Origin: Clostridiaceae bacterium
GTDB lineage: Bacteria; Bacillota; Clostridia; Acetivibrionales; DTU013
Reading direction: 5' to 3'
Length of the DNA: 49,935 nt
Assembly: GCA_012519745.1 (NCBI GenBank)
Contig: JAAYPO010000111.1
Coordinates: 1-49,935, forward strand
This document shows, piece by piece, positions 37,043-49,935 of the stretch (positions are counted from its first letter, which is position 1; every line of letters begins with the position of its first letter). Position numbers and translations under genes: made by a program. The notes beneath the pieces are model-generated. The model made no database searches and was not told the DNA's origin. It saw only the letters and a list, made by a program, of their open reading frames with translations.

Positions 37043-37525
37043 TCAACCCTCTGCTACTTTCACTATGCCGCCGCCCACTTCAAAGGACCTGCCAAGCAGC
37101 TCTGATTTGTTGCTGCTGACAGCTGTGATCTGAACATCTGCTGTTACCAACAGTCTGGTTGCATCCAGTTCGACCACGTCTCCTTCCTTCAGCTCCAGCA
37201 GTATCGTATCAGTGAAAAATGCACCTGCCACATCACCGTTGACCATTACCTTCAATTCCGGGCAATAGCTGATATTGCTCAGCGTTAGCTCCATTTTGCT
37301 CGGTTCAAACAGGTAGGCCTCAGATCCCAGGGATACTCCGTCGATCGTTTCTTTGTTATTATAAGCCCTTACGGCAGGGTCCGTCAGTACAGCCTGGGAT
37401 AATACCAGTAAAATGAAGAAGGTCAGAAAGAGGCTTTTCAGAAGTCTTTCAACTCCTTCAGCCAATTTTCCTTGTACTTTTTTCATCTCAGTATTTTTCG
37501 CTGTTTCGGTTGTGTTAGTATCCAT
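37043..37525 (-). CDS. Small membrane-anchored protein of unknown function
   Basis: I do not recognise this 160-residue protein. It has a charged N-terminal segment (about 1-30) and one hydrophobic helix (about 31-48, LFLTFFILLVLSQAVLT). A polar C-terminal part rich in beta-prone residues would lie outside the membrane. The start at 37525 follows GGAGAG; the frame is open 13 codons further up. It lies 58 bases after the FAD-dependent oxidoreductase gene and probably belongs to the same unit. Confidence 0.75.
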   Translation of the reverse strand: MDTNTTETAKNTEMKKVQGKLAEGVERLLKSLFLTFFILLVLSQAVLTDPAVRAYNNKETIDGVSLGSEAYLFEPSKMELTLSNISYCPELKVMVNGDVAGAFFTDTILLELKEGDVVELDATRLLVTADVQITAVSSNKSELLGRSFEVGGGIVKVAEG

Positions 37526-37583
37526 TTCTGCTCTCCAAAAATTACTATTATCTTTAGTATACACTTTAGGAGAGGTATGATAC

Positions 37584-39882: not shown

Positions 39883-40539
39883 ATGCTTCAAATCGACGAT
39901 GCCGGAAGCGGAAGCTTTGTTGGCGGCACCTGTATAGGCATTTACAGACCTGAGACAAATGAGTATTGCTTTGATATAATTCCAGTTGAATTCTATAACA
40001 AGGAAAATTTCAAGAAGAAGCTCTATCTTGATCAGGTTGTCAATATTGCCTCTGCCGCCATAACATGCCTTAAGCCTTCCAGGGGTGAGATGATCGAAGT
40101 GTGCAGAGGCTATATGTTTGAGCGTTTGAAAATATGGCTGGAAAACAACGGCTATCGCTGGTATTCGACACAGATCACAGGAAGGATACAAGAAATAGTA
40201 GAGAAAAGCTTTGAGCTTTATACGGAAAGACTGGGTCTGCCATGGCAGTATATCAAATACACAAGATATCCTTTCCATTTTCACAAGCTTCTCAGGTGGG
40301 TGTATGCCGATTATGACAACAGGATAAAGCTGTGCAAGGTCGGATGGAAAAGCTGGCAAAAGCTCGAATCCATTGTGCCTGATACAGCATGGGCCAGTAT
40401 GTGTGCTGTATCATTTACATGTATGAAATGCGGCAGACATATAAAGCCACGCAGTGAGGTAAAGGTGATCAGGTTTGTAAGCAACCGTGAAAACTACGTC
40501 TATCTGCACGATAAATGTGATAGCGGAAAGGGGCACTGA
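39883..40539 (+). CDS. Protein of unknown function with zinc-ligand C-terminus
   Basis: A 218-residue protein I cannot assign. The N-terminus QIDDAGSGSFVGGTCIG resembles active-site motif I of RNase HII-type enzymes (DEAGRGxxxG) and may mark an RNase H-like fold, but I find no second convincing motif. The C-terminus has CMKC at about 186-189 and HDKC near the end, a plausible zinc site. The middle is rich in aromatic and basic residues. GGGGAGAT precedes the ATG. It is a single gene between two minus-strand units, and its last codons lie inside a strong hairpin. Confidence 0.8.
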   Translation: MLQIDDAGSGSFVGGTCIGIYRPETNEYCFDIIPVEFYNKENFKKKLYLDQVVNIASAAITCLKPSRGEMIEVCRGYMFERLKIWLENNGYRWYSTQITGRIQEIVEKSFELYTERLGLPWQYIKYTRYPFHFHKLLRWVYADYDNRIKLCKVGWKSWQKLESIVPDTAWASMCAVSFTCMKCGRHIKPRSEVKVIRFVSNRENYVYLHDKCDSGKGH

Positions 40540-40580
40540 TCAACCATTTGATCCTGGTATTGGTTGATCAGTGCCCCTTT
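40527..40580. terminator. Bidirectional 20-bp hairpin between converging genes
   Basis: The perfect 20-base arms AAAGGGGCACTGATCAACCA (40527-40546) and their complement (40561-40580) enclose a 14-base loop. The left arm contains the final codons and TGA of the upstream plus-strand gene; the right arm ends six bases before the stop of the minus-strand gene. The T-tracts are only three bases, so efficiency is uncertain. Confidence 0.65.
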
Positions 40581-41995: not shown

Positions 41996-42406
41996 TTAAT
42001 TAATTGACGCCAGGAGATCTCCGGCATTTACGGAAGCGCCCCTGTCTACATTGATCGAAGCTACCTCACCATCTGAAGGTGCAACGATCTCGTTTTCCAT
42101 TTTCATAGCTTCCAGTACTACCAGTACCTGGCCCCTCTTGACTTTATCACCGACTGAAGCCACTACCTTGAGTATGGTTCCCGGCATGGGAGCATTGACC
42201 TTGACTGCTCCGACAGTACCACCTGTGACTGCCTTCTTTTCATTGACCGGTGCTGCAGGTGCAGGTGCAGCCGCCTGAACAGGTGCAGCTGCAGGTGCGC
42301 TCACTGCCGGTGCTGCCGGAACATACACAGGAAGGGAACCGTCCCTTATCTCTTCGACCTCGACTTCATACTGATTGCCGTTGACTTTTATCAGAAACTT
42401 TTTCAT
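41996..42406 (-). CDS. Biotin carboxyl carrier protein (1.3S-like)
   Basis: A 136-residue carrier with an N-terminal short domain, an Ala/Pro-rich flexible linker (about residues 29-56) and a biotinyl domain. The biotin attachment lysine is Lys102 in EAMKMENE. It shuttles carboxyl groups between the MmdA-like and OadA-like subunits. It lies 12 bases upstream of the 5S-like gene, with GGGAGGAT before its ATG. Confidence 0.96.
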   Translation of the reverse strand: MKKFLIKVNGNQYEVEVEEIRDGSLPVYVPAAPAVSAPAAAPVQAAAPAPAAPVNEKKAVTGGTVGAVKVNAPMPGTILKVVASVGDKVKRGQVLVVLEAMKMENEIVAPSDGEVASINVDRGASVNAGDLLASIN

Positions 42407-49692: not shown

Positions 49693-49935
49693 ATGGGGAC
49701 GTTTCTCTGCCGGAGGGCTGTTCTTCACAGCCTGAGATGTGTCAGAACGTGGTAGTGGGACACTTCTGTGCAGGGAGTCAGGCTTTGTGTGCTGAGAAAT
49801 GTCAGAACATGGTAATGGGACACTTCTCTGCAGGGAGTCAGGCTTTGTTTGCTGAGAAATGTCAGAACGTGGTAATGGGACACTTCTCTGCAGGGAGTCA
49901 GGCTTTGTTTGCTGAGAAATGTCAGAACGTGGTAA
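49693..49935. repeat. 60-bp tandem repeat running off the window end
   Basis: Three full 60-base units begin at 49756, 49816 and 49876 (TGGGACACTTCTCTGCAGGG in the last two). Units 2 and 3 are identical, unit 1 differs at three bases, and a diverged copy precedes them (49693-49755). One plus-strand frame stays open through all units, repeating 20 codons (GHFSAGSQALFAEKCQNVVM), but no ribosome site is seen. The array continues beyond the window. There are no spacers, so it is not CRISPR. Confidence 0.9.

Follow-up and report, generated by a model that had tools for sequence, protein, structure and literature searches.

Classical REP sequences and BIMEs are short extragenic palindromes that are tied to Y1 transposases and carry a GT-containing foot. 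In the REPIN, two inverted end units are combined in one hairpin, and in Pseudomonas fluorescens SBW25 near-identical REPINs are described as forming ordered clusters, in which they are repeated in tandem together with flanking sequence (Bertels and Rainey 2011, PMC3116915). TIRYTs, or TIRtrons, are tyrosine transposase genes with flanking inverted repeats that share the motif GGGGWSAS, and the TIR families are reported to occur also off the genes, as dimers or clusters (Di Nocera 2013, PMC3733652). Subclass 2.1 of the TnpA_Y1 proteins corresponds nearly to RAYT group 1 (291 of 292 sequences), and its description states that neither automatic nor manual search revealed REP-like sequences near the genes (Quentin 2018, PMC6006769).

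Here we describe a 60-bp tandem array in a clostridial genome. With considerable confidence, we interpret it as the head-to-tail local amplification of a non-autonomous mini-element of the REPIN/TIR type, presumably moved by a Y1 transposase. Seen in this way, an odd 60-bp repeat offers an opportunity to test the biology of RAYT-type mini-elements in Clostridia.

Structure and Location of the Array

The window, by which we mean the whole stretch of 49,935 nucleotides that was analysed, ends where contig C43 ends, in a genome of 3.07 Mb and 138 contigs. Its last 240 bases (49695-49935) are occupied by four direct 60-bp units (Table 1). TRF assigned the repeat a score of 366 (period 60, 3.4 copies, 95% matches), the next best row in the window reaching 46; this score, the four units and further units in contig C68 confirm the tandem repeat reported in the initial annotation. 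The unit combines an imperfect hairpin of 47 bp, GGGACAC-TTCTC...GAGAA-ATGTC, with a linker of 13 bp, AGAACGTGGTAAT, within which lies the GGTA tag of the family (GTGGTAAT). As plus-strand DNA the hairpin folds weakly (z -1.5). Unit 1, whose core spans 49696-49743, has an identity of 0.60-0.62 to the other units and unit 2 one of 0.96. The identical pair pointed out in the initial annotation is that of the last two units, 3 and 4 in the present numbering; in C43 the 60-bp periodicity is perfect over 126 bp (49810-49935).

Table 1. Coordinates of the array, its neighbours and a solo element in the window
Feature	Start	End	Strand	Remark
Unit 1, diverged mini-element hairpin, GGGGACGTTTCTC...GAGATGTGTC	49695	49743	+	
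Linker 1, AGAACGTGGTAGT	49744	49756	+	holds the GGTA tag preceding unit 2
Unit 2 hairpin	49757	49803	+	
Linker 2, AGAACATGGTAAT	49804	49816	+	
Unit 3 hairpin	49817	49863	+	identical to unit 4
Linker 3, AGAACGTGGTAAT	49864	49876	+	
Unit 4 hairpin	49877	49923	+	array goes on past the contig end in C68:1-98
Linker 4	49924	49935	+	truncated at the contig end
trpS promoter, TTGACA-17-TACAAT	49658	49686	-	array edge
trpS (tRNA-synt_1b, E 1e-71)	48624	49610	-	downstream of the array
Solo mini-element, long-loop form	36961	37032	-	outside the minus-strand ORF 37043-37564

Extension of the sequence to the right, which had been recommended as a check, led to the start of C68, where the same array shows perfect 60-bp periodicity over 96 bp and then ends at an M50 peptidase gene; the last unit closes with TGTCCC, and its final base lies inside the M50 stop codon. 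At the opposite edge, about 8 bp from the first core, lies the trpS promoter, just as first noted. Because M50 and trpS adjoin co-directionally in six relatives, we infer that C68 and C43 are neighbouring contigs. If they join, the perfect runs of 126 and 96 bp would allow at least five units. The position of the array is the place where the short-read assembly breaks.

The site was compared with 20 related genomes by searching with the M50 protein, and trpS was present in 10 of the 20 loci taken; the comparison leaves out G001, in which the region is not readable, and the M50 search gave no match in G002. In G003, G004, G005, G006, G014 and G019, M50 is followed co-directionally by trpS, the aligned ends being 94-331 bp apart; in the remaining four of the 10 loci the two genes are divergent. 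In all six co-directional relatives the end motif is absent between M50 and trpS. The TTGACA-17-TACAAT-type arrangement is present at trpS in G003, G004 and G005, all of which are devoid of the array, and was not found in G006, G014 and G019. Since relatives have the M50-trpS pair without the motif, the array would appear to have been inserted into the stretch that separates M50 from the trpS promoter. Strains may differ in the number of units at this site, and the variable-number locus envisaged in the initial annotation is plausible, because the last units are perfect copies, the array is cut by two contig ends and related species have no array; the comparison covers one genome per species, and some of these genomes are incomplete.

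Other repeats were seen in the window at 40530-40577, a 48-bp palindrome (GGGGCACTGATCAACCA...TGGTTGATCAGTGCCCC) outside the GGGACA family, and at 42254-42298, an imperfect 6-bp tandem repeat of TGCAGG (7.5 copies, 66% matches).

A Dispersed Family of Hairpins

The hairpin was found elsewhere in the same genome and in all four genus mates searched. The palindrome pattern GGGACANTYCT...AGRANTGTC was present in 21 genomes out of 60, among them the present one, and a reversed control pattern gave one hit in all 60 genomes together. A covariance model built from 16 elements, with seeds from the same genomes that it searched, gave 50 matches in the own genome and 22, 39, 45 and 41 in the four genus mates, both strands being counted, where 150 of the 821-1269 first-look candidates per genome were scored and the E-values are rough. 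The search for the unit, likewise proposed at the outset, thus returned further copies dispersed in the own genome, together with an array in contig C51. Direct tandem arrays of the mini-element recur at many sites, with differing periods. Of the possibilities initially considered for the repeat, that of a selfish element is supported, the unit bearing the end motifs of Y1 elements and being both dispersed and tandem in its own and related genomes.

The arms of the mini-element carry the motif GGGACRNTYC, and its general form is a pair of facing terminal motifs, GGGACRNTYCT ... AGRANYGTCCC, with a GGTA tag conserved on the 5' side. Among 57 flanked elements, a set that includes a few nested matches (L120, L125, L139 and L159), a stem mismatch revealed the orientation of 28. 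Oriented in this manner, they have a common foot, AAGGTANG, which is present 5' and absent 3', and the mini-element is therefore asymmetric. The foot of these 28 elements has G in 78% at position -5, T in 78% at -4, A in 64% at -3 and G in 85% at -1; position -2 is free, which gives GTANG rather than the GTAG foot of REP and REPIN sequences.

Individual members of the family are worth recording. A long-loop form of about 72-74 bp, with a second palindrome inside the loop, was found in the own genome as the solo element of Table 1, which is overlapped by two uncorroborated plus-strand ORFs, and at L173-L176. The C51 array (C51:16390-16556, L006:2391-2557) has three units with a period of 58 bp and lies, as judged by eye, a few bases upstream of a putative thymidylate kinase gene. 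A degenerate cluster of the family at C12:53250-53399 (L032:3251-3400) lies directly upstream of a gene start, by eye that of a putative dnaE PHP domain.

Y1 Transposases and the Ends of Their Genes

Two long transposases of the Y1/HUH type are encoded intact in the genome, C134 with 353 aa and C32 with 311 aa. They score 51.1 and 56.2 bits with Pfam Y1_Tnp, above its cut-off of 23, and 37.4 and 51.2 bits with NCBIfam REP_Tyr_transpos, under its cut-off of 80. Bac_DnaA_C matches C134 weakly, under its own cut-off (E 0.0025), and gives no match in C32. In an alignment of nine Y1 proteins NHxH and YIHNN are invariant, and P is present in six of the nine, including both proteins of this genome. 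A search of PDB sequences gave nothing useful. On contig C3 (L028:2448-3535), a Y1_Tnp fragment covering profile positions 69-121 is followed by a putative TnpB/OrfB ORF (by eye); this locus, apart from the long Y1 genes, is probably a decayed element of the IS605 type.

Analysis of 26 long-Y1 loci revealed the motif GGGACRNTYC upstream in sense orientation in 24, downstream and inverted in 20, and on both sides in 19. Wrong-way motifs were found upstream in two, downstream in four and on both sides in one, and with shuffled flanks the motif was obtained in 0.3 and 0.2 loci. These loci, tblastn finds among 30 loci used of 59 matches listed (L025, L063, L064 and L071 were dropped), come from nine genomes, near-identical copies being counted separately; L068, with 90 bp upstream, and L078, with none downstream, are nearly devoid of flank on one side. 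Sufficient flank was available for 69 of the 80 named loci: the motif lies upstream in 35 and is absent there in 34, lies downstream in 31, is found on both sides in 31, and occurs in the wrong orientation on both sides in none. When 21 loci from overlapping genomes are removed, it is upstream in 19 of 53, downstream in 16 of 53, on both sides in 16 and wrongly oriented on both sides in none. Exact sequence matches identify one of the genus mates, G004, as the MAG 'Clostridiaceae bacterium isolate AS22ysBPME_286', L177 and L186 containing L073 and L068. Judged from these flanks, the association between motif and Y1 genes holds, yet among the more distant loci roughly two in three are without the exact motif. 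No GGGACA hairpin was seen close to the three Y1 hits of this genome, nor did the covariance model match any of 30 Y1 loci, because it is single half-motifs, not complete hairpins, that bound those genes.

The elements and the genes also occur in the same genomes. With a cut-off of 300 aa, which was chosen after inspection of the table, a Y1 frame of at least that length was present among the matches listed in 17 of 21 palindrome-bearing genomes and in 2 of the 39 genomes lacking the palindrome (Fisher 2e-9); counted by family, and again among the matches listed, the figures are 11 of 11 versus 2 of 8 (p 0.001). The matches listed contain no long Y1 gene for the element-bearing genomes G003, G006, G018 and G027, which are 83-89% complete.

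The two ends share the variable dinucleotide of the motif in 18 of the 31 pairs from the named loci, versus 6.1 expected, and in 7 of 16 pairs versus 4.1 expected in the non-overlapping set, a borderline agreement that 244 of 5000 permutations equalled. One transposase gene of G029 has three ends whose inner 11 nt agree, at no fewer than 8 of 11 positions, with 14, 17 and 16 of all 31 local mini-elements, whereas of 67 ends taken from other genomes only 4 agree with as many as five. Two other transposase genes of G029 that were tested have ends that match none of the 31 mini-elements, and the inner bases of the G029 ends matched none of ten G015 elements. A recognition code in the variable end bases is only suggested by the dinucleotide agreement. 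The family in the window shares about 12 terminal bases with the local C134 gene (GGGACGCTTCTC against GGGACACTTCTC), and the inner bases differ. The palindromes of G029 (L257-L266, L277-L297) are near-perfect, of the form GGGACGGTTCT...AGAACCGTCCC, and about half of them match the inner ends of one local gene.

Origin of the Array

Because the motif bounds long Y1/HUH genes both here and among related Clostridia, the unit looks like both ends of a TIRYT/RAYT-type element joined without the gene. These features suggest a model in which a Y1 transposase, probably of the C134 type, would recognise the mini-element as single-stranded hairpin DNA, cut it and move it into the gap between M50 and trpS. 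Short matches of the hairpin foot and flank could then have allowed slippage during replication, or unequal exchange, to duplicate the element with its linker head to tail several times, and the perfect identity of the last units suggests that these were copied recently. Both the mobility of the mini-element and the identity of its partner transposase are, in this model, inferred.

In support of such duplication, the linkers of 16 arrays (18 loci, 16 of them forming runs) were more similar to the 5' flank of the array they belong to than to the 5' flanks of the others. The score was 128, versus a permutation mean of 80 and a maximum of 115 (0 of 10,000), and with the window and the two clearest arrays removed it was 89, versus 63 and a maximum of 86 (0 of 10,000). 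The test was carried out on 5' flanks only, the 3' flanks of the window and of G002:C31 being still array. Likeness between linker and flank is clearest in G002:C31 and G004:C350; the flank score of the window array, 6, equals the best obtained with other arrays and is weak alone and not decisive. It became less likely that the window linker simply duplicates the flank at trpS (TGTCAAGTAGTAAT), since its GGTA part is the family tag and its score is no better than with other arrays.

Alternative Explanations

The period of 60 is divisible by three, and the stop-free 20-codon frame pointed out in the initial annotation is real, three of the six frames being open through the repeat; a repeat protein was accordingly among the first suggestions, the coding reading being a repetitive protein or peptide built from units of 20 residues. 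The open frame is uninformative, however, because when the unit was dinucleotide-shuffled 5000 times, one or more frames were fully open in 98% of the products and three or more in 48%. Past the final C68 repeat the plus-strand frame runs straight into a stop (...AEKCP*), the C51 sister array has the 58-bp period given above, and the periods of 16 arrays from the own genome, the genus and the more distant G021 range from about 58 to 68 bp, so that neither openness beyond chance nor periods consistently divisible by three are observed. What recurs between genomes is the palindrome, and a coding function is scarcely credible.

The location of the array, between the M50 stop codon and the trpS promoter, would suit host regulatory hairpins of RNA or DNA that act in M50-trpS read-through or mRNA protection and are kept by selection rather than by mobility. 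As RNA in the direction of the genes, unit 3, in which the C:A mismatch is then a G-U pair, folds with -15.3 kcal/mol (z -3.1), and unit 2 does so more weakly (-11.5, z -1.7); two other arrays lie, by eye, just upstream of gene starts. Against such a function, the motif is missing from the six M50-trpS relatives, three of which retain the promoter, there is no terminator-like tail, a search of five sources gave no Rfam match except tRNAs, and the elements are scattered over many sites. We consider it improbable as the origin of the array, which may nevertheless have a secondary role after insertion. Facing terminal repeats and the lack of a coding region are also what a MITE would have, that is, an element of a classical DDE transposase with terminal inverted repeats and target-site duplication and no relation to Y1 proteins. 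No excess of target-site duplications was detected, however, direct repeats of at least 3 nt being found at 2 of 56 elements versus 1.6 expected, and the same ends stand on both sides of the Y1 gene in 19 loci of the 26-locus set and in 16 of the 53 further loci. This makes a MITE a very unlikely source, more so than a regulatory hairpin.

Amplification of a putatively Y1-dependent mini-element leads to a wider proposal, which we offer tentatively and with somewhat less than even confidence: Clostridia may own a REPIN-like system, in which transposases of RAYT group 1/subclass 2.1 would maintain hairpins of about 48 bp made of their own end motifs, with the variable bases as recognition code, a GGTA foot in place of GTAG, and local head-to-tail expansion. 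Should both the end code and the partner transposase be borne out, candidate DNA substrates would become available for the large and little-studied subclass 2.1, and the fate of such elements after insertion could be read from the head-to-tail arrays.

Comparison with Known Systems

A literature search for a hairpin family of this kind in Clostridia found no published description among the best-ranked titles, and searches with the motif strings returned only unrelated titles among the matches listed. Among the closest described systems are the TIRYTs. The sequence GGGGACAC fits the motif GGGGWSAS as given in PMC3733652 exactly, inverted repeats surround RAYT-like Y1 genes, and the same repeat is found elsewhere as dimers or clusters. 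The main text of that paper contains neither "Clostridi" nor "Firmicutes". Unlike the TIRs as they are described there, the dimers in the present family are compact hairpins, carry an asymmetric GGTA tag and form direct arrays.

The Y1 proteins of the genome resemble subclass 2.1, of which they are candidate members, and are candidate partners of the mini-element. In common with the subclass as characterised in PMC6006769, they have the HUH and Y---NP motifs, a length of about 310-350 aa and flanking repeats of the form GGGG[AT][CG]A[CG], and the weak DnaA-like match of C134 is likewise C-terminal. Unlike subclass 2.1 as published in that account, the genomes analysed here contain dispersed hairpins that share the end motifs of the genes.

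With REPINs the family shares the inverted-end hairpin and its dispersal, a long Y1 gene being present in 17 of the 21 element-bearing genomes among the matches listed. Compared with the SBW25 REPINs, as presented in PMC3116915, the arm is GGGACRNTYC, the unit measures about 48 bp and the host is clostridial. Compared with classical REP sequences and BIMEs, as commonly understood (see PMC2817692 and PMC3733652), the foot is GGTA(N)G and not GTAG, and the arrays are direct repeats instead of alternating in orientation. What is added to an already known kind of element is the clostridial family, together with its GGTA foot and its arrays.
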